In this document: positions 7,753 through 50,051 of the stretch, piece after piece
Layout: each line of letters starts with the position of its first letter
How positions within the stretch are numbered: position 1 is the stretch's first letter
DNA from: Chloroflexota bacterium
GTDB taxonomy: Bacteria; Chloroflexota; Dehalococcoidia; Lucifugimonadales; JADFKI01
DNA length: 57,411 bases
Assembly (NCBI GenBank): GCA_009840355.1
Contig: VXNZ01000024.1
Coordinates: 41,599-99,009, forward strand
Direction of reading: 5' to 3'
Notes under the pieces: model-generated
The model's database searches: none
Told to the model about the DNA's origin: nothing
Seen by the model: the letters and a program-made list of their open reading frames with translations, nothing else
Made by a program: the position numbers and the translations under genes

Positions 7753-9564
7753 ATGAAGGAGAAGATACGAAATCTGTCAGTTATTGGGCTGGCGTTGGCG
7801 ATTGGATTGGCTGTGGTGGCATGCGGCAGTTCGGCTGCGCCTGCGCCTGCTGCTCCGTTGCCGCCGGTTGCTCCACAACCTCCACAGGCTGCTGTGCCGG
7901 CTGCAGCCGCGCCTGCATCAATGCCAACCGTGGCTGCGGTAATGGCAGCGCCAGCCGCGCCCGCACCTGCCCCGGCAGCTACCACCGCGCCCGCGCCCGC
8001 GATGATGGAGGCGGAGGAGACAGGCGAAGTCCAAAAGCCCATATCCAGGTCGGCAGCTGCGGCAGCGCCGGCTGCGCCTCAAAGTTCGGGCGGTCAAACG
8101 GCACAGTCACAGTTGCCGCCCGACCGCAAGGGTGGTCAGCCCGGAGCGACGACTTTCGCGGACTACGAGCGCACTCCGTTCGTATATGCGTCCGATGACA
8201 ACGTTTCGACCTTCAGTCTGGACACCGACCGCACTTCGTATCACCTTGCGCTGAACTGGGCGCGCGAGGGCTACGATGTGGAGCCGGATTCGGTGCGCGC
8301 GGAGGAGTGGATAAACGCTTTCAATTACGGGTACGCGCAGCCCTCGCAAGATGACAGCTTCGCGGTGCATACGGATGTCATTCCTCATCCGCTGGACGAT
8401 CGCATGGCACTGGCGCGCATCGCTTTCCAAGCTCCTGAACTGCGCGATGACGGCAGGCCCCTTAATGTAACGCTGGTGCTGGACGCCTCCGGCTCTATGG
8501 CGGATGGGGACAGGGTGGACATCGCGCGAGAAGCCGCTGAGAGCATCCGTAATAGCCTGCGCCGGGACGATCGAATCGCGGTGGTGCATTTCACGGATGA
8601 GGTTATCGACAAGCTCACCGTAGAGCATTCGAAACCGGACAGCAGGGATGTGCGCAGGTCTATTGACAGGCTTGACCACGGCGGCTCGACGAATGTTCAG
8701 GCCGGGCTTGACCTAGGCGTGCAGTTGGCGCATGAAGCGCGGTGGGAACGTCCTAATTCACATAACTATGTGATACTGATGTCGGACGGAGTGGCAAATG
8801 TCGATGCAACGAACCCGTTCGCAATACTGGAGTCTGCCGGAGACTATGACAACAGCAATCCGCTCCGGCTCATCACGATTGGCGTGGGCATACAGAACTA
8901 CAACGACTACTTGCTTGAGCAGTTGGCGCAGCACGGCAACGGCTGGTATCGCTATCTCGACGACACCGGGCAGGCGCGCGCGACCTTCAGCCGCGAGAAC
9001 TGGCTTGCGCTGTCGATTCCGTTCGCAGACCAGACGCGAGCGCAGGTTACTTGGAATCCGGAAGTTGTGCAGTCGTGGCGGATCGTAGGATACGAAAACC
9101 GAGTAACGGCTGACGAGAATTTCGCGCAGGCGCGCAAGGAATTCGCGGAGATACCTTCCGGCGCTGCGACTACTGTGTTCTATGAGTTGGAGTTGGTAGA
9201 GTATGCGAGACGGGGCGATGTACTGAATATGGGAGATGTCGAGGTGCGCTGGGTAACGCCGGTGAGCAACGAATCGAACCGTCAGCACGCGCAAGTACTG
9301 GCGAAGTACGACGATGCACCTAACGATAGGGATGGCGCTCTGCTGGAGCTTGGGGCGCTTGTCGCGCTGGCGTCAGACAGGTACAGCAGCCTGCCGTATC
9401 CGGATGCGCCGTATGACGTGCATGAAGACCTTGCTGTGCTGAAAAGTGACCTGCGGGACCTTGACAGACACGTCGGGGAACTGGCGGCTTACAGGGACTT
9501 CTCGTTCCTAATAGAGCACATCGCGCGGGATATTCCGAAGCAGGCTTCGGGGTATAGCCGTTAG
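7753..9564 (+). CDS. VWA-domain lipoprotein, YfbK-like with C-terminal DUF3520 region
   Basis: 603 residues. A type II signal peptide ends at VVAC (Cys24), so it is a lipid-anchored surface protein. Residues 26-130 are an Ala/Pro-rich linker. From about residue 135 there is the YfbK-type N-terminal region (FADYERTPFVYASDDNVSTF). A von Willebrand A domain follows, with an intact MIDAS motif DASGS at 244-248, GGSTN and MSDG. The C-terminal third matches the DUF3520 part of these proteins. The function is unknown; VWA domains bind metal and protein partners. The start is fixed by GGGAGG eight bases upstream. The gap before it (7558-7752) holds no other gene. Confidence 0.9.
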   Translation: MKEKIRNLSVIGLALAIGLAVVACGSSAAPAPAAPLPPVAPQPPQAAVPAAAAPASMPTVAAVMAAPAAPAPAPAATTAPAPAMMEAEETGEVQKPISRSAAAAAPAAPQSSGGQTAQSQLPPDRKGGQPGATTFADYERTPFVYASDDNVSTFSLDTDRTSYHLALNWAREGYDVEPDSVRAEEWINAFNYGYAQPSQDDSFAVHTDVIPHPLDDRMALARIAFQAPELRDDGRPLNVTLVLDASGSMADGDRVDIAREAAESIRNSLRRDDRIAVVHFTDEVIDKLTVEHSKPDSRDVRRSIDRLDHGGSTNVQAGLDLGVQLAHEARWERPNSHNYVILMSDGVANVDATNPFAILESAGDYDNSNPLRLITIGVGIQNYNDYLLEQLAQHGNGWYRYLDDTGQARATFSRENWLALSIPFADQTRAQVTWNPEVVQSWRIVGYENRVTADENFAQARKEFAEIPSGAATTVFYELELVEYARRGDVLNMGDVEVRWVTPVSNESNRQHAQVLAKYDDAPNDRDGALLELGALVALASDRYSSLPYPDAPYDVHEDLAVLKSDLRDLDRHVGELAAYRDFSFLIEHIARDIPKQASGYSR

Positions 9565-9734
9565 AGCATGAACCAACCGGATTTTCACGATGGGCAGGAC
9601 AGAGAGCGTTCGCATTCCTCTGTGCTGCCCTCAGGATTTTGGTTGAAGGCGTGCTGTCGGCTTTGTTACACTTTCAAGCAGTGTTCGGCGAGGCAAGGGT
9701 AACCATCCGTGGCGAATGACGAGGTTTCAGGCTT

Positions 9735-10034
9735 ATGGCAGAGGGTACGCGGCTGACAACGGACGAAGTGCGGCATATTGCGCTGCTGGCGCGCGTGGGG
9801 ATGACCGATGACGAGGTGGAGCTGATGCGCGACAATCTGTCGGACATTCTAGAGCAGTTCGAGGCGCTGAGTGGCGTGGATACGGGCGATCTGGAGCCTA
9901 CCGGACATTCCGTTGACCTGCTGTCCGTGATGCGCGCGGACGCGGCGCGACCATCGTTCGCGCGCGAAGACACGCTCGCCAACGCGCCGAACCGCGAAGG
10001 CGACCTGGTGCGTGTGAAGGCGGTATTGGAGTAG
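9735..10034 (+). CDS. gatC: Asp-tRNA(Asn)/Glu-tRNA(Gln) amidotransferase subunit C
   Basis: 99 residues with the GatC signature: [21 protein letters not shown] at the start, [21 protein letters not shown] in the middle and a [14 protein letters not shown] segment with a RxDxxxPS-like stretch. GatC is the small clamp subunit that stabilises GatA on GatB in transamidation of Glu-tRNA(Gln) and Asp-tRNA(Asn). It is 71 nt upstream of gatA on the same strand. gatB is not in the window and must be encoded elsewhere. Confidence 0.93.
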
Positions 10035-10105
10035 GGCGGTACGACACGCGCGGACATTGGCGGACACATATATGCCGGATATACGCCGGATATGATTGGG
10101 GATGT

Positions 10106-11575
10106 ATGAGCGATAGCTGGCTTGCCGGGCTTACGGCGCATGAGGCGAGAAGGCTGCTGGACGGCGGCGATATTACATCGGTGGAGCTTACTTCTGCCGT
10201 GCTTGGGCGCATCTCGCAGGTGGAAGACAGCGTGAGGGCGTTCGTTACGGTCACCGAAGACACTGCGATGGAGCAGGCAGAGCGTGCGGACGCGCGAATC
10301 GCTGCCGGCGACGCCATGCCGCTGACCGGCGTGCCGATGCTGCTCAAGGACAATATGATCACCAAAGGCATCCACACCACTTGTTCGTCGCGCATGCTCG
10401 AACACTTCGTGCCGCCATACGACGCGACCGTTACCGAAAGGTTGTACGCACAGGGCTCAGTACTAGTCGGCAAGGGTAATCTCGACGAATTCGCAATGGG
10501 TTCGTCGAATGAGAACTCTGCCTTTTATCCCACGCACAACCCGTGGTCGCTCGACCGCGTACCGGGCGGCAGCAGCGGCGGTCCTGCTGCTGCGGTCGCG
10601 GCTGACGAATGTCTATTCGCGCTCGGCTCGGACACCGGCGGCAGCATACGGCAGCCGGCATCGCTGTGCGGCGTCGTGGGAATGAAGCCGACATACGGCC
10701 TTGTCAGCAGATTCGGACTCGTCGCGTTCGCCAGTTCGCTCGACCAGATAGGCCCGATAACAAAAGACGTGCGAGACTGCGCTATCACGCTAAGCGCCAT
10801 CGCGGGCAATGACCCCAACGACTCGACATCTCTGAGCTTGGATGTGCCGGACTACACGCAGGCGCTTGGCGAAGACTTGCGCGGGCTGCGGATTGGCATC
10901 CCGGTCGAATACTTCGTGGACGGGCTGGACGCCGGCGTGGAGAGCGCGGTGCGAGACGCCATGGATGTGCTGCGTTCGCTAGGTGCTGAGGTGGAAGAGA
11001 CGTCGCTGCCGAGCACGCCATACGCGCTTGCAGTGTACTACATCATCGCGCCATGCGAGGCATCCGCGAATCTGGCGCGCTATGACGGCGTGAAGTACGG
11101 CTTTTCAGTGCAAGATGCGGACGGCGTATGGGACGCGCTGGAAAAGACGCGGCAATATGGCTTTGGCCCCGAGGTCAAGCGGCGCATAATGCTGGGCACA
11201 TACGCGCTGTCGGCGGGCTATTACGACGCATATTACTTGCAGGCGCAGCGCGTGAGAACGCTGATACGCCGTGAGTTCGAGCAAGCCTTCTCGCAGTACG
11301 ACGCGGTGGTAATGCCGACATCGCCAACAGTGGCATTCAAGCTTGGTGAGAAAACCGCAGACCCGCTGCAAATGTACCTAAACGACATCCTGACGATCCC
11401 CGCGAACATCGCCGGCATACCGGGCATATCCGTGCCGGCAGGAATGTCCGACGGACTGCCCGTAGGCATGCAAATAATGGGCCCCGCCCTAAGCGAAGAA
11501 ACGCTGCTGCGAGTAGCTTACGCCTACGAACAAGCCACCAACTTCCGCGCCACTTACGGCACGCCCCCGCTGTAA
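10106..11575 (+). CDS. gatA: Asp-tRNA(Asn)/Glu-tRNA(Gln) amidotransferase subunit A
   Basis: 489 residues, full length for GatA, the amidase-signature subunit that releases ammonia from glutamine for tRNA-dependent amidation. The Ser-cisSer-Lys triad is complete: Lys81 in LLKDN, cis-Ser156 in PGGSSGG and the nucleophile Ser180 in DTGGSIR. The GatA-type segments [19 protein letters not shown] and [21 protein letters not shown] separate it clearly from the three generic amidases near 45-50 kb. The ATG at 10106 follows a GGGGA-rich stretch. It probably forms an operon with gatC. Confidence 0.95.
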
Positions 11576-40782: not shown

Positions 40783-42000
40783 CTACCGCACCGGCACCTT
40801 ATACCCCGCCGTCTGCACTTCCGACAGGCTGTTCTCGTCCCACGGATGCGCCAGCGCGACCTCTTCGTTGATGTCCGCGCCCCAGCCGGGGACGGTGGGG
40901 ACGGTCATGTAGCCGTCGATTATTTCGGGGACGGTGGTCGTGAGCTCGTCCTTCCACGGGATGTCGTCGATGTCGATTTCCATAATGCGCACATTCGGCA
41001 GCGTGGCGCACAGGCTCGCGCTGACGAAGCTCGACAGGTGGCTGTAGTAGTTGTGCGGCGCGACATTGTGCTGATACACCTCTGCCAAATCGCCGACTTT
41101 CTTAGATTGGCTGAACCCGTTCCACGGCACGTCAATCATGAACATATCCGCCGAGTGGTTCTCGAAGTAGGGGATGTAGTCGCGCATGTAGAACAGGTTC
41201 TCGCCGGTGCAGATGCGCGTGGTCGTGGAGTCCTTAATCTGGCGCAGGCTCTTCGGTTCGTACATGTCGATTTCCATCCACAGCATGTCGAACTGCTCCA
41301 GCACCTTGGCGATGCGCAGCGCGCCCTCCGTCTTGAAGTGGAAGTTCAAGTCTAGGTTGATGTCGATGTCATCACCCACGGCGTCGCGGAATGTGCCGAT
41401 GAGCTTCTCGATGTGCGGCATCAACCACTTTGGCGCGTACTGGTCGGTCGAGCCTATACCGCCGCTGAACCCGCCGCCAAAAGTCGCACCTTCGCCCGGC
41501 ATGATAATGTTCGTCTTCAGCGCCGTGAAGCCGCGCTCCTTGACTTCATGCCCAAGGTCTGTGATCGACTGCCAGGAATCTATCGGCGGCACGCCAAGGA
41601 TGTCGTGATGGCGCACGCGCGAACTGCCGCAGTGTGACCAGTAAACGCGCACCTTCTCGCGCGTGGGACCGCCGAACAACTCCGCGACCGATATGCCGAG
41701 CGCCTTTGCCTTGATGTCGATGAAGGCGCAGTCGAGTCCGGCGATTGCCTTAGCCGCGATGCCGCCCGGACTTTGGCGTGTAATGCGGTACATGTCCTGG
41801 AAGCGCATCTCGAACGCGCGCGGGTCCTTGCCGATGAGCAGCGGCTTCATGTCGCGTATAGTGCCCTCGATGCCGTGAGGGGAGCGCCCGTCGCTGCACT
41901 CGCCCCAGCCTGTGATGCCCTCGTCGGTCTCGACTTTGACGAACATCCAGGGTCGCCAGCCCGCGTCCACTATGAAAGTTTCGATATTGGTAATTTTCAT
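40783..42000 (-). CDS. Enolase-superfamily dehydratase (MR group), paralogue 4
   Basis: 405 residues; the ATG at 42000 (MKITNIET) is preferred over one nine bases upstream because GAGAGG then lies at a normal distance. Metal ligands are Asp217 (LDLNFHF), Glu243 (MEIDM) and Glu267 (CTGEN); Lys162 (LKTNI) and the His of VAPHNYYSHLS complete the site. It shares the YWSH, KTNI and APHNY motifs with paralogue 3, so the two are recent relatives although they lie on opposite strands. The promoter likely lies in the direct repeat at 42022-42057. Confidence 0.87.
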   Translation of the reverse strand: MKITNIETFIVDAGWRPWMFVKVETDEGITGWGECSDGRSPHGIEGTIRDMKPLLIGKDPRAFEMRFQDMYRITRQSPGGIAAKAIAGLDCAFIDIKAKALGISVAELFGGPTREKVRVYWSHCGSSRVRHHDILGVPPIDSWQSITDLGHEVKERGFTALKTNIIMPGEGATFGGGFSGGIGSTDQYAPKWLMPHIEKLIGTFRDAVGDDIDINLDLNFHFKTEGALRIAKVLEQFDMLWMEIDMYEPKSLRQIKDSTTTRICTGENLFYMRDYIPYFENHSADMFMIDVPWNGFSQSKKVGDLAEVYQHNVAPHNYYSHLSSFVSASLCATLPNVRIMEIDIDDIPWKDELTTTVPEIIDGYMTVPTVPGWGADINEEVALAHPWDENSLSEVQTAGYKVPVR

Positions 42001-42021
42001 GTCATGCATCCTCTCTCGTGA

Positions 42022-42057
42022 GTGTTGATTTCAGCGCGGATGATACCACAAAACAGG
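42022..42057. repeat. Direct repeat DR-A at the left edge of the DGQHR island
   Basis: GTGTTGATTTCAGCGCGGAT followed by GATACCACAAAACAGG. A second copy at 44766-44802 differs by a few substitutions and one indel. On the minus strand both copies contain an extended -10 type box, TGGTATYAT, so a duplicated promoter is an alternative to an insertion-type target duplication. Confidence 0.75.
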
Positions 42058-42109
42058 GGTGCACGGAGAAAGGATACGATGCACCCTAATCAACATCCCG
42101 AAAAGCAGG

Positions 42110-42151
42110 AACGCCATACGGCTGCGCTTCGGTGCGCGGCAGTATGGCGTT
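42110..42151. repeat. Strong hairpin with about 17-bp stem
   Basis: The outer 10-bp arms AACGCCATAC and GTATGGCGTT are perfectly complementary. The inner GCTGCGC pairs with GTGCGGC-like bases around a TTCGGT loop, with one mismatch near the junction. It lies within the island, between the direct repeat and the hicB gene. Function unknown. Confidence 0.7.
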
Positions 42152-42225
42152 GCTGGTGTGCGTATAGCGGTTCGGTTGCGTCCTCGTCATCAACAAATAC
42201 CTCAGCAATTGGAGCGAGCGCGCCT

Positions 42226-42477
42226 CTACTGCAAGACTCCGACTAGCGAAATAGAGGTAAGCGTGCTGCCGGAAGGAACCGCGATAGATTCCAAAGAACT
42301 CGGCTCAGGAACCCTCTGCCCGTTTGCCTCCATACTGGCAATCCAGTCGCGCATAGAATCTTCCGCATTGCGAACGACCTCATCCACGGTACAGCCCATA
42401 GCCACGCAGCCCGGCAAATCCAGGAATACCGCTCCGTAAGCGCCAGCCTCCCCGTCAATTAACGCTGGATACTTCAT
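42226..42477 (-). CDS. hicB: HicB-family antitoxin, orphan
   Basis: 83 residues starting MKYPALIDGEAGAYGAVFLD, then LPGCVAMGCTVDEVVRNAED and MRDWIASMEANG, the standard HicB partial RNase-H-like fold. The usual C-terminal DNA-binding helix-turn-helix or ribbon-helix-helix segment is absent; the frame ends PSGSTLTSISLVGVLQ. No hicA toxin gene lies beside it, so it is either a truncated antitoxin or an orphan. The 42478-42783 interval upstream holds no coding sequence, only the promoter of the next gene. Confidence 0.7.
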   Translation of the reverse strand: MKYPALIDGEAGAYGAVFLDLPGCVAMGCTVDEVVRNAEDSMRDWIASMEANGQRVPEPSSLESIAVPSGSTLTSISLVGVLQ

Positions 42478-42679
42478 GCCCCAATTATAGCCAGCGGCGT
42501 AACCACAAACAACAAGTTCGCCGCCCCTGCTCCCAAAGGCACCGCGCCCACCGAATTGCACCCGCCACCCGATGACGCATCAGCGTCAGGCCTGGGTGTA
42601 GCCGTCACCATCATGACCACCACCTGCGGCGACCTGTAGCGGAGTGACCGTTTATTACCTTGTCGCCCATCGCCTACTA

Positions 42680-42749
42680 TATCTTATGGGTATTTTGCTG
42701 TCAAAACTTGACATAAGATAACCGCCTGTGGTACAATTAAAATAAGATA
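42680..42749 (+). promoter_or_regulatory. Sigma70 promoter embedded in a three-half-site operator
   Basis: The -35 TTGACA (42708-42713) and -10 TACAAT (42732-42737) are 18 bp apart. Around them lie TATCTTATG (42680-42688), its exact reverse complement CATAAGATA (42712-42720, overlapping the -35) and a further ATAAGATA (42742-42749) after the -10. This arrangement suggests repression by a dimeric factor covering the promoter; the downstream gene product is a possible autorepressor. Confidence 0.65.
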
Positions 42750-42783
42750 GTAAATAATATGTTATTTAGGAGGTGAAAACACC

Positions 42784-44034
42784 ATGATGGTTATGCCCGC
42801 AACACAGGAACAGTATTTCCGGATACCTGCACACAGGTTCAATCAAGGAAGACGGAGCGTGTTTACATTCGCGCTCACTCTGGAACAGCTGGACGGCATG
42901 TTGCCCCAGAGAATTGACGAGGATGTGGTTCGTGAAGCAAATCGACGCCTCACCCCGTCTCATGCCAGAGTGATAGAAACATACTTGGACGACCATTCGG
43001 ACGATTGGATATCTGGCTCCATATTAGTAGGTATTGACCCTAACGGTGTGGAGTTCGAAGGCTTTCCTGACGAAGATGGCAACGTGAGCCAAGCCTTTGG
43101 CCAACTGAAAATACCATTCAACCGGTTGAACACCCTGAGGTTGTTTGACGGGCAGCATAGACGAAGGGCAATACAGGACCTCCTGACAAACCTTCGTGAA
43201 AAAGAATCCGGCGTGGCCAGTTCCTTGAATTCCGCCAAGCGGAATGGGCAGAATCCGGACGTTATCAAATTGTTGAATAAACAGCTGGTCGATATACGTT
43301 CGAAGCGCGAATCGCTTCAACGTCAATCCGTGCCTATAGTCCTGTATTTGGAGGGAGAGATCAAGGCTCTTCAGCGAATGTTCTCCGATGCCGCTAAGAC
43401 CAAACCTATCGAAGCGATTACCAAGGCACGTTTTGATGACCGCGACCCTTTCAATTTGGCTGCAGCAGAAGTCATGGGACAGAGCGAATTCTTGCGAGAT
43501 CGCATCGATATGGAACGCAGTACCGTTGCTCGTACCGCTCCATATCTACTGTCCTTCAATCAACTCGCAGTAGTTTTGAAGACACTGATGGTGGGGTACG
43601 GCGGTCGAATTAGTAGGGTTCGTAACGATGAGTTTATGGCAGATTATGAGCCTGTCATTAAACGCAGCCTTGAGTGGGCAGACGATTTCATGCCTTCTTC
43701 TTGCGAAGAATACGACAATCTCTTGAATGGGGACGTTGAGGCCTCGGAATTCATTCCGGACCGACGGCGAGAGACATTTGCATTTAACGCAACGATAATC
43801 AGAGTGCTCGCTGGATGCTTCTACAGTTGGCAAGTCGAAGTGGGTGAAGATACTGAACCAATGGCGCGCTACATACGCAAGCATTCATTTGAGAACACTA
43901 TTAAGAGGTCGCTATGGGTTAGAGCAGGACTCGTGGCAGAAGGTGGTACAACCCCTGTTGCCAGGGCACAGGAAGTCAGGGGTGCCATACGCTTCATCGT
44001 TGACAACGCGAAGAAGTCTTTGAATGCCAAGTAA
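42784..44034 (+). CDS. DGQHR-domain protein, DndB-like
   Basis: 416 residues with the defining DGQHR motif at 122-126 (LFDGQHRRRAI). DndB-type proteins are associated with phosphorothioation modification of DNA, in which DndB acts as a regulator, but some DGQHR genes stand alone in other defence islands. No dndACDE or other modification gene is in the window. The promoter carries an operator-like inverted repeat, consistent with self-repression. AGGAGG precedes the ATG. The lower GC of its 5' region, the direct repeats around it and broken neighbours point to an acquired segment. Confidence 0.85.
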   Translation: MMVMPATQEQYFRIPAHRFNQGRRSVFTFALTLEQLDGMLPQRIDEDVVREANRRLTPSHARVIETYLDDHSDDWISGSILVGIDPNGVEFEGFPDEDGNVSQAFGQLKIPFNRLNTLRLFDGQHRRRAIQDLLTNLREKESGVASSLNSAKRNGQNPDVIKLLNKQLVDIRSKRESLQRQSVPIVLYLEGEIKALQRMFSDAAKTKPIEAITKARFDDRDPFNLAAAEVMGQSEFLRDRIDMERSTVARTAPYLLSFNQLAVVLKTLMVGYGGRISRVRNDEFMADYEPVIKRSLEWADDFMPSSCEEYDNLLNGDVEASEFIPDRRRETFAFNATIIRVLAGCFYSWQVEVGEDTEPMARYIRKHSFENTIKRSLWVRAGLVAEGGTTPVARAQEVRGAIRFIVDNAKKSLNAK

Positions 44035-44105
44035 CATGTGAACGGGGCTGTTTCAGCAGCCCTGGAAACAAACGCTGTAAGCGTCCTTGAGTTCATACCC
44101 TTTAG

Positions 44106-44454
44106 TTAGTCTATCACATCATCTACGATACGAAGTTCTTCGGTGCTAAACTCTTTCGAGTCAGGTTGACGTACTGCAATGACCCTATGCTGACGTCCTT
44201 GAGCTAGACGCACTGATCCTTCGTCGATTAGTGATTGACGGATCTCGTCGAAATCTTGATTAGCTGGGATTCCACCAAGGCGCAGATACTTGTATGGCGT
44301 TCCGGTTATTGATTTCCTCGACGGCTGATAGGCGTAAAGATCTGCTAAGAATAATGATAGCCTTCAATTTCATAGTGCCAAATCGACTATCATCTTTGCA
44401 TTGATCTGCGATATAGACAATCAGTTCGCGATACTTCGTAGTCTGCTCGTTCAT
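44106..44454 (-). pseudogene. Panacea/DUF4065-like antitoxin gene, single frameshift
   Basis: The start MNEQTTKYRELIVYIADQCK, with SRFGTMKLK after it, is the Panacea N-terminus. The second part, ITGTPYKYLRLGGIPANQDF and IRQSLIDEGSVRLAQGRQHR, continues in another frame to a TAA. One net single-base shift near 44340-44360, in the ILSRSL region, joins YAYQPSRKSITGTPY to the first half. Panacea proteins are antitoxins in hyperpromiscuous toxin-antitoxin systems; no partner toxin was recognised. AGGGGA precedes the ATG. Confidence 0.75.
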
Positions 44455-44510
44455 AAGTCCCCTTGTGTACGCCCGTATTGCCAAAGCATGGGTATTGGTC
44501 GGAGTGATAT

Positions 44511-44702
44511 TCATCCATCGGTAGATTGGGCCACGGCCGCACTCCGCTCTTGACAGAAACTAAGGCACTGCCGCACCGCATCCAGCTGCTCCAGCCACTC
44601 GATCTCAATCAGCCCGTCATCGTCCGCGTCATAGTCCACCGCCGACTGCGCCCCCACACCATTCATCCCTGCCAGGACTTCAAGATAACATTCTCCATCC
44701 AC
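44511..44702 (-). pseudogene. Fragment of a DxDxDGLIEI calcium-motif repeat protein
   Basis: About 63 codons with VLAGMNGVGAQSAVDYDADD, DGLIEIEWLEQLDAVRQ, a repeat found in large surface proteins of Chloroflexota and other bacteria, cut off at both ends. It is too short for a complete protein and sits at the right edge of the island before DR-B. No other coding sequence is recognised between 44455 and 44878. Confidence 0.45.
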
Positions 44703-44765
44703 GCTGCGAATTCGTCCCTGTCCCCAGCCATCTCGCGCAGTATTGTCTCGCGCCCTCTCTGCCGG

Positions 44766-44802
44766 GTGTTGATTTCAAACTCGGATAATACCACAAAACA
44801 GG
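44766..44802. repeat. Direct repeat DR-B at the right edge of the DGQHR island
   Basis: GTGTTGATTTCAAACTCGGA followed by TAATACCACAAAACAGG, the partner of 42022-42057, 2.74 kb away in the same orientation. The similarity runs a few bases further (GCACG). Confidence 0.75.
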
Positions 44803-44878: not shown

Positions 44879-45259
44879 ATGGCAAACCCGGTAGTGTATT
44901 TCGAGATAGGTGGCAGGAACGCGGAGGGGCTGAGAGAGTTTTACAGCGACCTGTTCGGCTGGAACATCAGCGAAGCGGAGGCAGCATCGGCTGCCGTCAG
45001 CCCGTACTTGTTCATTCAGAACGAAGAGGGCGGCATTCCCGGCGGCATCATCAAGACAAACGAGAATATGCCGCCCAATTATGTGATGTTCTATGTGCAG
45101 GCGGACGACTTGCAGGCTACGCTGGATAAGGTAGTCAGTTTGGGTGGCAGTGCAGTCGTGCCTCCCACCGACATTCCCGGCGGCATGGGGCAGATTGCCG
45201 TGTTTATGGACCCTGAGAACAATGTCATCGGCTTGCACAAGTGGAACGAGAAGGGATGA
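44879..45259 (+). CDS. VOC-family (glyoxalase-like) protein 1
   Basis: 126 residues with two beta-alpha-beta-beta-beta modules, of the VOC fold; features include FEIGGRNAEGLREFYSDLFG at the start and a C-terminal FMDPENNVIGLHKWNEKG, the pattern of YgiM/PhnB-like small VOC proteins. GGAG precedes the ATG. The substrate is unknown. It lies just upstream of a second VOC gene (gap of about four bases), an apparent two-gene operon. Confidence 0.85.
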   Translation: MANPVVYFEIGGRNAEGLREFYSDLFGWNISEAEAASAAVSPYLFIQNEEGGIPGGIIKTNENMPPNYVMFYVQADDLQATLDKVVSLGGSAVVPPTDIPGGMGQIAVFMDPENNVIGLHKWNEKG

Positions 45260-45626: not shown

Positions 45627-45652
45627 ACGCTGTGGGCATTTGGAGGCTTACC

Positions 45653-47080
45653 ATGCCGAACATCGACGAAAACCTCGCATTCACTCCGGCGTCCGAACTT
45701 GCCGCGCTTATCGCCGATAAGCAAGTGTCGCCCGTTGATCTAACGCAACTGTATTTTGACCGCATCGACAGACTGGACTCGCAGCTGAACTCATACCTGA
45801 CGCTAACGCAGGATGAGGCGATGCAGGCTGCGAGGGATGCGGAGAGTGCGGTAATGCGCGGCGACGCTCTCGGCACACTGCACGGCGTGCCAATCTCCAT
45901 CAAGGACCTGGAGTTGACCAGGGGCATACGCACAACGAGCGGCTGTCTTGTGTTCAAGGACAGGATACCTGATGAGGATTCGATAGTGGTCGAGCGAGTG
46001 AAGGCATCGGGCGCGATCATTCTTGGCAAGACGAACACGCCGGAGTTCGGACACAGGGGCACGACTGAGAATCTGCTGGGTGAGCCATGCCGCAATCCGT
46101 GGAATACGGAGCGCACACCGGGCGGGTCGAGCGGGGGCGCGGCAGCCGGACTGGCAGCCGGGCTTTGCGCCATTTCGACTGGAAGTGATGGGGGAGGCTC
46201 AGTTCGTATTCCCGCAAGTTTTTGCGGGCTGTACGGCATCAAGCCCACGCAGGGGCGGGTGCCGCGCTATGGCGGTCGTGCTGCGCCCGCCGTAGCCAAT
46301 CAACTAAGCCAGTCGGGTCCGATTACGCGCACGGTGCGGGATTCGGCGATTCTATTGCAGGCGCTTGCAGGGCGGGACGCGCGCGATGCAGGATCATTGC
46401 GGGACACACCGGGCGACTACATCGCCGCGCTCGACCGCGACATCAGCGGTCTGCGAATCGGGTGGAGTCCTGATTTCGGATACGCTGCGGTTGACCCGGA
46501 GGTCGTGGATGTTTGCGGCAGCGCGGCGCAGGTATTCGCGGAGATGGGCTGCGCGGTCGGTGAAAGCGGGTTTGCGCTCGACTCGCCGCAGGAGGCGTTC
46601 CGCGTGCTCTTCGCCGTGAACACATACGCGTCGTCAGGTTATCTGCTGCACGAGCATGGCGGCGACCTGACGGACTACTTCCGCGCCAATATGGAGTTTG
46701 CAGCCACACAGACCGCAGCCGATTACGCCAGGGCAATCGGCGAGTTGGATATCGTCAAGGCGCGGTTTGACGAATACTTCGAGAATTACGACCTGCTGCT
46801 CTCGCCAACGATGGCAGTGCCCGCATTCGAGATAGAGCAGCATCCGACAAGCGTGGCAGGGCAGGAAGTCGATCCGTTCTTCGGTTACCTGCCGTTTACA
46901 TATCCGGTCAACGCCATCGGGCATCCCGCCGCAAGTGTGCCGTGCGGCTTTTCGTCAGACGGCATGCCCATCGGCTTGCATATCGTGGGACGACATGGCG
47001 ATGAGGAGACGGTATTGGCTGCGTCGGCGGCGTTCGAGCGTGTGATGCCCTGGGTGCACAAGATGCCACCGGTGAGTTAA
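45653..47080 (+). CDS. Amidase (amidase signature family), tandem copy 1
   Basis: 475 residues from the ATG at 45653, preceded by GGAGG. The Ser-cisSer-Lys triad is Lys84 (SIKDL), cis-Ser159 (PGGSSGG) and Ser183 (GGSVRIP). It hydrolyses a carboxamide, and the family ranges from fatty acid amide hydrolase to aryl-amidases. Its loop PGGSSGG differs from GASSGG in copies 2 and 3, and its region around 350 is more diverged. The copy lies after the VOC genes and begins a three-copy array with near-identical starts (MPNIDENLAF). Confidence 0.92.
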   Translation: MPNIDENLAFTPASELAALIADKQVSPVDLTQLYFDRIDRLDSQLNSYLTLTQDEAMQAARDAESAVMRGDALGTLHGVPISIKDLELTRGIRTTSGCLVFKDRIPDEDSIVVERVKASGAIILGKTNTPEFGHRGTTENLLGEPCRNPWNTERTPGGSSGGAAAGLAAGLCAISTGSDGGGSVRIPASFCGLYGIKPTQGRVPRYGGRAAPAVANQLSQSGPITRTVRDSAILLQALAGRDARDAGSLRDTPGDYIAALDRDISGLRIGWSPDFGYAAVDPEVVDVCGSAAQVFAEMGCAVGESGFALDSPQEAFRVLFAVNTYASSGYLLHEHGGDLTDYFRANMEFAATQTAADYARAIGELDIVKARFDEYFENYDLLLSPTMAVPAFEIEQHPTSVAGQEVDPFFGYLPFTYPVNAIGHPAASVPCGFSSDGMPIGLHIVGRHGDEETVLAASAAFERVMPWVHKMPPVS

Positions 47081-47129
47081 ACTCACATCGATGTACAGGA
47101 TAGACAAGGATGGATAGGAGATTTGACCA

Positions 47130-48566
47130 ATGCCGAACATAGATGAGAATTTCGCGTTTGCGCCGTCTTATGAACTTGCCGCTCTAATTGCCGACAAGCA
47201 AGTATCGCCGGTTGAAGTCACGCGGCTTTATTACGATCGAATCGAGCGGCTGGACTCGCAGCTAAACTCGTACCTGACGCTGACGCAGGACATGGCAATG
47301 GAGTCAGCGCGGGCTGCGGAAGATGCCGTGATGCGGGGCGATGAGCTTGGGCCGCTGCACGGTGTGCCGATATCCATCAAGGACTTGCAGATGACGGCAG
47401 GCGTTCGCACCACCTTGGGGTCGCTCGCCTACAAGGATAATGTACCGGAAGCGGATTCAGCGGTGGTGGAGCGCGTGAAGGCTACGGGCGCGGTGATACT
47501 GGGCAAGACGAATACGCCTGAGTTTGGGTTGCTGGGCGCGAATGAGAACCGTCTTGGCGACGACTGCCGCAACCCGTGGAACACAGAGCGTACATCGGGC
47601 GCGTCCAGCGGTGGCGCGGGCGCGGCGGTGGCGGCGGGTCTGTGCTCGCTGGGAACAGGCGGAGACGGCGGCGGCTCTATTCGCATTCCTGCGAGCTTCT
47701 GCGGCATCTACGGCATAAAGCCGACGCAGGGACGTGTCTCTAGCTTCAGCGGCGTTCCTCCGGCGGCGCCTCTCCTGAATATCACCAGCCAGCAGGGACC
47801 GATGTCGCGCACGGTCAAGGACTCGGCGATATTGTTGCAAGCACTGGCGGGCTTTGATCCGCGAGACTCGGCGTCGTTGCGCGAGCCGGTGCCTGACTTT
47901 GTTGGAGCAGTGGACAAAGACATTAGTGGATTGCGTATCGCGTGGAGTCCTGACTACGGGTATGCGGGCGTTGACGCGGAGGTCGTTGAGGTGAGTGCGG
48001 GGGCAGCGCGCGTTTTCGAGGGACTGGGCTGCACAGTGGAGGACAGCGATCTGGCGCTGGATGACCCGTTCGGGACATGGTGGGTCTTCTTTGCCTCGAA
48101 TGTGTTCGTAACACAGGGGCACTTGCTGGACGATCCTTCTGATCCCCTGTCGTGGTACGGACGTATGGCAATCGAGGATGGCAGTAAATTCAGCGCTGGC
48201 GACTTCATCAAGGCGATGGGTGGGCGCGACCGTATGATAAACCAGTTTGCTGACGTGTTCGATGAGTATGACCTGATTCTGTCTCCGACGATGCCCACGA
48301 CAGCGTTCCCGGTGCGGGAATATCCTCACGTTATAGGCGGCAAAGAAAATGCCAACAGGAAGGGCTGGAGCTTCGTGCCGTTCACTCATCCCATCAATAC
48401 AATCGGGCATCCTGCAGCGAGCGTGCCTTGCGGTTTCTCGTCGGACGGCATGCCTGTTGGACTCCACATCGTGGGGCGCAAAGGTGACGAGGAGACGGTT
48501 CTGGCTGCGTCTGCGGCGTTCGAGCGCGCGATGCCTTGGGCGGACAGGAAGCCGCCGGTGAGTTAA
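47130..48566 (+). CDS. Amidase, tandem copy 2
   Basis: 478 residues, MPNIDENFAFAPSYELAALI, with the triad Lys84, Ser159 (SGASSGG) and Ser183 (GGSIRIP). Copies 2 and 3 are the closer pair, sharing long stretches such as GDDCRNPWNTERTSGASSGG and LVGHLLDDPSDPL-type motifs. GGAG lies before the ATG. The intergenic sequence CACATCGATGTACAGGATA recurs before copy 3 with small changes, showing that the duplication unit included the gap. Confidence 0.92.
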   Translation: MPNIDENFAFAPSYELAALIADKQVSPVEVTRLYYDRIERLDSQLNSYLTLTQDMAMESARAAEDAVMRGDELGPLHGVPISIKDLQMTAGVRTTLGSLAYKDNVPEADSAVVERVKATGAVILGKTNTPEFGLLGANENRLGDDCRNPWNTERTSGASSGGAGAAVAAGLCSLGTGGDGGGSIRIPASFCGIYGIKPTQGRVSSFSGVPPAAPLLNITSQQGPMSRTVKDSAILLQALAGFDPRDSASLREPVPDFVGAVDKDISGLRIAWSPDYGYAGVDAEVVEVSAGAARVFEGLGCTVEDSDLALDDPFGTWWVFFASNVFVTQGHLLDDPSDPLSWYGRMAIEDGSKFSAGDFIKAMGGRDRMINQFADVFDEYDLILSPTMPTTAFPVREYPHVIGGKENANRKGWSFVPFTHPINTIGHPAASVPCGFSSDGMPVGLHIVGRKGDEETVLAASAAFERAMPWADRKPPVS

Positions 48567-48614
48567 ACTGACATCGATGCACAGGATAAACAAGATGGAA
48601 TGGAGTTAAAGCCG

Positions 48615-50051
48615 ATGCCGAACACTGATGAAAATCTCGCTTTTGTCCCGTCCCATGAGCTTGCCTCGCTGATTGCGGACAAGCAAATCTCGCCGGTCGA
48701 GATTACGCAGCTCTATTTCGACCGGATCGAGCGACTGGACTCCCAGCTGAACTCGTACCTGACACTGTTGCCGGACATGGCAATGGAGGCAGCGCACGCA
48801 GCCGAGGATGCCGTGATGCGGGGGGATGAGCTTGCCCCATTGCACGGCGTTCCGATTTCGATAAAAGACCTTGTGATGACGAAGGGCGTGCGTACTACCT
48901 CAGGTTCGCTTGCTTACAAAGATCACATTCCCGCGGCGGACTCTGCCGTTGCGGAGCGGGTGAAGGCGAGCGGGGCAATCCTGTTGGGGAAGACCAACAC
49001 GCCGGAGTTCGGCTCCCTTGGCGCGAACGAAAACCGCCTGGGGGATGACTGCCGTAACCCGTGGAACACCGAGCGCACATCGGGCGCGTCGAGTGGCGGC
49101 GCGGGCGCATCGGTAGCGGCCGGGCTGTGCTCGCTCGGCACGGGCAGTGACGGAGGCGGTTCGATACGGATTCCCGCGAGTTTCTGCGGCATATACGGCA
49201 TCAAGCCAACGCAGGGGCGCGTCTCCGGCTTCAGTGGCGTGCCGCAGGATGTTCCGCTCGTCAACCTCTTGGGTCAGAATGGGCCTATGACGCGCACGGT
49301 GAAGGACTCCGCTATACTCTTGCAGGCACTGGCAGGATACGACCCGCGAGACGCTTCATCCTTGCATGCGCCTGTGCCCGAATTCGTGGCTGCGGTGGAC
49401 AGGGACATCAATGGGCTGCGTATGGCTTGGAGTGCGGACTTCGGCTATGCCGGAGTTGATGCAGAGGTGGTGGAAGTGTGCGCCGCGGGTGCGCGAGTGT
49501 TCGAGGGGTTGGGGTGCTCCATTGATGAGAGCGATTTGATGCTGGAGGACCCGTTTGAAATCTGGTGGGTCATGTCAGGGTGCAATTCTTACCTTACGCA
49601 GGGGCACCTGCTCGACGACCCGTCGGACCCACTGACTTGGTATGGTCGCATGCTCATCGAGGATGGCAAGGAGTTCAGCGCGGGGGACTATGTGAAGGCG
49701 CTGGGCCGCCGAGACCGGATGATAAACCAATTCGCCGATGTGTTCGAGGAGTACGACTTGCTGCTGTCGCCCACGATGGCGACGACCGCGTTCCCGGTGG
49801 GTGAGTACCCCGAGGTGATAGAAGGCAAGCGCAACGCCCATGTCAAGGGCTGGAGCTTCTTGCCGTTCACCCATCCCATCAATATGATAGGACATCCTGC
49901 CGCGACTGTGCCGTGCGGCTACTCGGCGGACGGCATGCCCATCGGGCTGCACATCGTGGGGCGCAAGGGCGACGAGGAGACGGTGCTGGCGGCATCCGCG
50001 GCATTCGAGCGCGCGATGCCGTGGGCGGACAAGAGGCCTGTTGTTAGCTAA
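48615..50051 (+). CDS. Amidase, tandem copy 3
   Basis: 478 residues from the ATG at 48615 with GGAG nine bases before; an in-frame ATG at 48600 is less well placed. The triad Lys84, Ser159 and Ser183 is intact. It closes the array. Very similar to copy 2, with a divergent central segment and FTHPINMIGHPAATVPCGYS end. Three intact copies imply selection for dosage or for different amide substrates. Confidence 0.92.
   Translation: MPNTDENLAFVPSHELASLIADKQISPVEITQLYFDRIERLDSQLNSYLTLLPDMAMEAAHAAEDAVMRGDELAPLHGVPISIKDLVMTKGVRTTSGSLAYKDHIPAADSAVAERVKASGAILLGKTNTPEFGSLGANENRLGDDCRNPWNTERTSGASSGGAGASVAAGLCSLGTGSDGGGSIRIPASFCGIYGIKPTQGRVSGFSGVPQDVPLVNLLGQNGPMTRTVKDSAILLQALAGYDPRDASSLHAPVPEFVAAVDRDINGLRMAWSADFGYAGVDAEVVEVCAAGARVFEGLGCSIDESDLMLEDPFEIWWVMSGCNSYLTQGHLLDDPSDPLTWYGRMLIEDGKEFSAGDYVKALGRRDRMINQFADVFEEYDLLLSPTMATTAFPVGEYPEVIEGKRNAHVKGWSFLPFTHPINMIGHPAATVPCGYSADGMPIGLHIVGRKGDEETVLAASAAFERAMPWADKRPVVS

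Follow-up and report, generated by a model that had tools for sequence, protein, structure and literature searches.

The island and its empty site

We analysed a window of 57,411 nucleotides from the genome of a Chloroflexota bacterium (3.28 Mb in 57 contigs, 97% complete). Within it, 2.7 kb of DNA lies between two direct repeats and holds, from left to right, a hairpin, an orphan hicB-like gene, the C-terminal remnant of a surface-protein gene, an intact gene of the DGQHR family, a broken Panacea-type antitoxin gene and the N-terminal remnant of the same surface-protein gene. The left repeat (42010-42057) is the upstream region of an enolase-superfamily gene (40783-42009, minus strand), and the right repeat (44754-44802) that of a glyoxalase-type gene (44879-45259, plus strand). 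A previous sequence-only reading of this DNA had described the repeats as near-identical over 36-37 bp. They are real, with a best local alignment score of 56 against at most 27 for 3000 pairs of 100-mers drawn at random from the window, but with 41 of 49 columns identical (84%) they are less than near-identical. Their core, GATRATACCACAAAACAGG, is present in 2 copies in the whole 3.28-Mb genome, even with two mismatches permitted.

The island is missing from two genomes of the same genus, G001 and G003. In both, the enolase-type and glyoxalase-type genes are directly divergent with a single copy of the repeat separating them, and about 25-32 bases there are matched by both the left and the right flank. 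This single copy identifies the repeats as the boundaries of an insertion and shows that genomes either have or lack the 2.7 kb at one exact position. The proposal of an insertion unit was thus borne out by the very comparison named earlier as its check, a one-repeat site lacking the island in related genomes. What was duplicated is the intergenic stretch common to both divergent genes in the empty-site genomes, and each flank now has its own copy. The idea of duplicated promoters was therefore partly right, in that the repeat is an upstream region common to both flanking genes, but the repeats mark insertion boundaries. The island was also absent from G004, where the enolase gene adjoins an amidase gene, and from G002, where it has another neighbor, making it absent from all four congeners. 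A separate feature of the window is a tandem array of three amidase-type paralogues at 45632-50051, which sister genomes have too. A second example of the same insertion was not found.

In its direct repeats and empty site the locus resembles direct-repeat-bounded genomic islands. It differs from them in that the repeats have already diverged and no integrase or transposase lies inside. Neither these nor any other recombinase was found among the ORFs of the island (ORF list and profile search), so that present-day mobility lacks this sign; the insertion itself stands on the empty sites. A tRNA target, as found at such islands, was ruled out, there being no tRNA in the window.

A foreign segment in the wreck of a surface-protein gene

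The two outer gene remnants, both on the minus strand, belong to one GLUG-repeat surface-protein gene. The C-terminal remnant (42479-42650), anchored by GGGCNSVGAVPLGAGAANLLFVVTPLAIIG, corresponds to residues 652-713 of an intact paralogue at 63% identity, and the N-terminal remnant (44571-44680), with the calcium-type motif DYDADDDGLIEI, to residues 21-60 at 83% identity; the DNA of the two remnants matches C37 of the same genome at 76% and 93%, respectively. The latter had been noted as a calcium-motif fragment, which is real and is now recognizable as the N-terminal part of this surface protein. In a DNA search of the genus, 42479-42631 and 44571-44674 both matched the same intact genes (C37 and C19 in the island genome, C4 and C6 in G004), which carry the matching pieces about 2 kb from each other, with order and orientation as in the island. 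These intact paralogues encode GLUG-repeat proteins (PF07581) of 700-770 aa, about 720 aa for those of the broken gene, with a DYDADDDGLIEI start, a TPTPT-rich stretch and a GGGCN-hydrophobic C-terminal end. The island copy of the gene lacks its middle part, and the segment with the DGQHR and Panacea genes occupies that place. This cargo is foreign by composition: its GC content is 0.50 and 0.47, and 0.37 immediately upstream, compared with 0.56-0.60 in the flanking genes, and its GC3 is 0.53 against 0.69-0.84.

Genes of the GLUG surface-protein family are present in several copies per genome (L024 4490-6649, L025 4707-6863, L026 5353-7650, L027 4577-6688). The hairpin with 29-nt arms at 42099-42162 is weakly similar to two intergenic sites in L024 and L026. 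We considered repeats flanking the intact paralogues and rejected them, as those listed (at two loci, only part of the repeat families) fall within coding sequence. We also rejected terminal inverted repeats for the cargo, because the left arm of the 9-bp inverted match close to the cargo ends lies within the surface-gene homology and such a match is equalled in 1.7% of random pairs. Between the N-terminal remnant and the right repeat, the minus strand at 44681-44743 reads EMAGDRDEFAAWMENVILKSWQG, which may be the end of a further gene that has been lost.

The HicB-like antitoxin gene (42226-42477, minus strand; PF15919, E = 1.1e-11), with a likely start at the ATG at 42477, is an orphan as previously stated: the ORF list of the island holds no second ORF of the hicA kind, and there is no HicAB pair. 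The Panacea gene (SocA/Panacea-type; 44106-44514, minus strand; PF13274, E = 5.3e-4, below cut-off) carries the frameshift recognized in the sequence-only reading as well as an in-frame stop, located where intact relatives read on. Neither its C-terminal half nor a toxin gene remains, leaving no antitoxin-toxin pair. G002 and G007 have intact antitoxin relatives of 184-186 aa that are followed by a small toxin-like ORF, which by eye we read as a RelE-like toxin. These relatives are thus like known Panacea toxin-antitoxin modules (PMC8832971), unlike the island with its broken antitoxin and lost toxin gene. The locus is therefore a real, acquired but decaying island, and the 42479-42650 remnant, the nesting in a broken surface gene, the extent of decay and the absence of a recombinase add to its earlier description, which had missed them.

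The empty sites could also have arisen by loss. If the island were ancestral, recombination between the direct repeats in G001 and G003 would give exactly the observed single-copy site. We consider this improbable, since the island is absent from all four congeners, no relative of the DGQHR gene was found in the 7 other genomes of the family sampled and the composition of the cargo is foreign. Acquisition is thus the reading that we follow below.

The DGQHR gene and its promoter

The one clearly intact gene of the cargo (42784-44034, plus strand) encodes a protein of 416 aa. It passes the cut-offs for PF14072 (E = 3.4e-37; 128.7 bits against 29.1) and for the DGQHR domain TIGR03187 (86.8 bits against 58.85), in agreement with its first description as a DndB-like DGQHR gene, and fails that of the DndB equivalog TIGR03233 (58.9 bits against 328). 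By these profile scores, it is a member of the DGQHR/PF14072 family and not DndB proper. DndB is usually discussed as a regulator of DNA phosphorothioation. DndC had no match in this 97%-complete genome, while the control matched below cut-off in 5 genomes; a search for DndE, in which no control gave a match, carries no weight either way. The protein has cysteines at residues 307 and 345 only, with none at the place corresponding to the regulatory Cys29 of Salmonella DndB (PMC4507180). It is therefore very improbable that an orphan DndB acts here in trans on phosphorothioation; the DGQHR domain match above cut-off would fit such a role, but the equivalog score and the lack of a DndC match argue against it.

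Structural comparison gave no significant match. The predicted structure has a pLDDT of 77.8 and no Foldseek match at E ≤ 0.001, with sulfiredoxin appearing at E 4.9; in a fold comparison, SspE chains were found at Z 5.8-5.9 amid unrelated rows, and sequence searches of solved structures gave no useful match. A DndB-like protein binds ATP and GTP (PMC12704722), an ATP-dependent regulatory role has been described for DndB (PMC10853773), and DUF262 proteins with the related DGQQR motif have a role in restriction (PMC4619093, PMC12137116). Together with this literature, from which the nucleotide part is taken, our analysis suggests that the island protein is most likely an NTP-binding DNA-binding protein of the ParB/sulfiredoxin superfamily.

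The region upstream of the gene (42652-42783, plus strand) contains a predicted near-consensus promoter, TTGACA-18-TACAAT at 42708-42737 (11 of 12 consensus positions), and a ribosome-binding site, AGGAGGTG, that by direct inspection is a good match. Three copies of ATAAGATA are found within 70 bp around this promoter, one of them inverted (42680-42687, minus strand; 42713-42720 and 42742-42749, plus strand), and the window holds 4 in total against 0.55 expected. They resemble the repeats bound by DndB at its self-repressed promoter in the dnd operon (PMC4507180). The island protein thus probably represses its own promoter through these predicted sites, as DndB does at its operon. Relatives share just the promoter layout and do not have the ATAAGATA repeats, so the case for autoregulation comes from one sequence.

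Relatives of the DGQHR gene and the origin of the island

The DGQHR gene is rare, being found in 2 of 301 sampled genomes of the phylum, the island genome included. Its best relatives belong to a different phylum, Candidatus Dadabacteria (62% and 61% identity), followed by one at 55% on a Chloroflexota contig that ends just past the gene. In a tree, support was obtained for the Dadabacteria pair, for two genes from actinobacterial plasmids and for groups inside the set adjoining recN only; the branch joining the island protein to the Dadabacteria pair was unsupported. An origin from a virus was considered and rejected, as relatives of the DGQHR protein were absent from the viral contigs and phages searched, and likewise those of the GHKL-type protein described next.

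In both Dadabacteria (L035 7995-11523 and L036 7989-11556) the DGQHR gene shares about 11 bp with an overlapping gene, whose 760-aa product has the GHKL-ATPase motifs ELLTNSDAAY, RDRAEGMS and GYFGLGAKD. The HATPase_c match of this protein (E = 6.7e-4) is below the Pfam cut-off, and its N and G box motifs were read in the sequence; it had no PADLOC match, and its fold model (pLDDT 36) was unusable. A PDC-S06 gene comes after one copy of the pair and abiE genes come before the other, placing both in defence neighborhoods. Among 58 phylum genomes, the GHKL-type gene was found in two, the two Dadabacteria only. It was not found in the island genome or its genus with the same query that recovered both Dadabacteria copies. 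In G100, a more distant relative (L049 7819-13015), one run of genes comprises a Swt1-HEPN-DGQHR fusion, another DGQHR gene and a gene for a UvrD-like helicase; the HEPN match falls slightly short of its cut-off. We found no description of a pairing of DGQHR and GHKL genes in the open-access literature.

The earlier suggestion that the DGQHR protein may serve a system other than dnd is therefore plausible, given that DndC had no match and that its nearest relatives pair with a GHKL-type gene and not with dnd. The DGQHR and GHKL pair in these relatives is the best lead. From this pairing, we think that the island gene is probably the leftover half of a conflict or defence module, whose function is judged from its neighbors. 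Comparable parts are known from anti-phage systems (PMC4619093, PMC12137116): GmrSD, GrwAB and SspE (DUF262, DGQQR motif) have a ParB/Srx-type NTPase motif, and VcSduA (GHKL Shedu) has a GHKL ATPase. Unlike these, neither the DGQHR protein (profile search) nor the GHKL protein of its relatives has a recognizable HNH or Shedu nuclease domain. In its most specific form, which we put forward as a rather doubtful conjecture, the protein would act as the sensor or regulator in an undescribed, phosphorothioation-independent anti-phage pair with the 760-aa GHKL-type ATPase, and related DGQHR proteins would have been swapped between effectors, namely the GHKL ATPase and the Swt1-HEPN fusion with its UvrD-like helicase.

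Solitary genes of this family are also found. Several Chloroflexota have copies about 39% identical that converge on a recN-like gene (L038, L039, L040 and L042, at about 7980-11000), and Hoyosella, Streptomyces and Serratia plasmids carry copies without dnd genes; a lone DGQHR gene is thus not unusual. Since lone genes are common elsewhere, the island gene may never have needed a partner, and could be a complete gene with its own function, for example a DNA-binding regulator or a nucleotide-dependent anti-invader protein. That the gene is intact and has its own predicted promoter fits this explanation. It is a possible one that we nonetheless think unlikely, as the closest relatives (61-62%) overlap the GHKL-type gene and the solitary group adjoining recN is more distant from the island protein than they are.

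The history that we favor makes the DGQHR protein one half of a conflict or defence module, stranded without its partner. The presence/absence polymorphism is observed directly, and we infer that a surface-protein gene and the hicB next to it were inserted between the divergent enolase-type and glyoxalase-type genes. Its entry would have duplicated about 49 bp, leaving each flanking gene with a copy of its own upstream sequence, and may have occurred through a single crossover of a circle with about 50 bp of homology or through duplication during break repair. Foreign DNA with the DGQHR gene and a Panacea toxin-antitoxin module has replaced the middle of the surface gene, presumably at a later time, and everything except the DGQHR ORF, and perhaps hicB, has decayed. 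In its original setting the DGQHR protein, by way of NTP and DNA binding, would have gated an ATPase effector. We consider this account as a whole, from insertion and later foreign cargo to a stranded, self-repressing protein, to be on balance probable.

With the empty site as a reference, this locus shows that an insertion can duplicate a common upstream region so that both flanking genes retain it. The DGQHR subfamily spans phyla without adjoining dnd genes, and operons of relatives hold a GHKL-type ATPase, or a helicase together with a HEPN fusion. These settings suggest a general role for DGQHR proteins as a nucleotide-dependent module in the conflict systems of bacteria.
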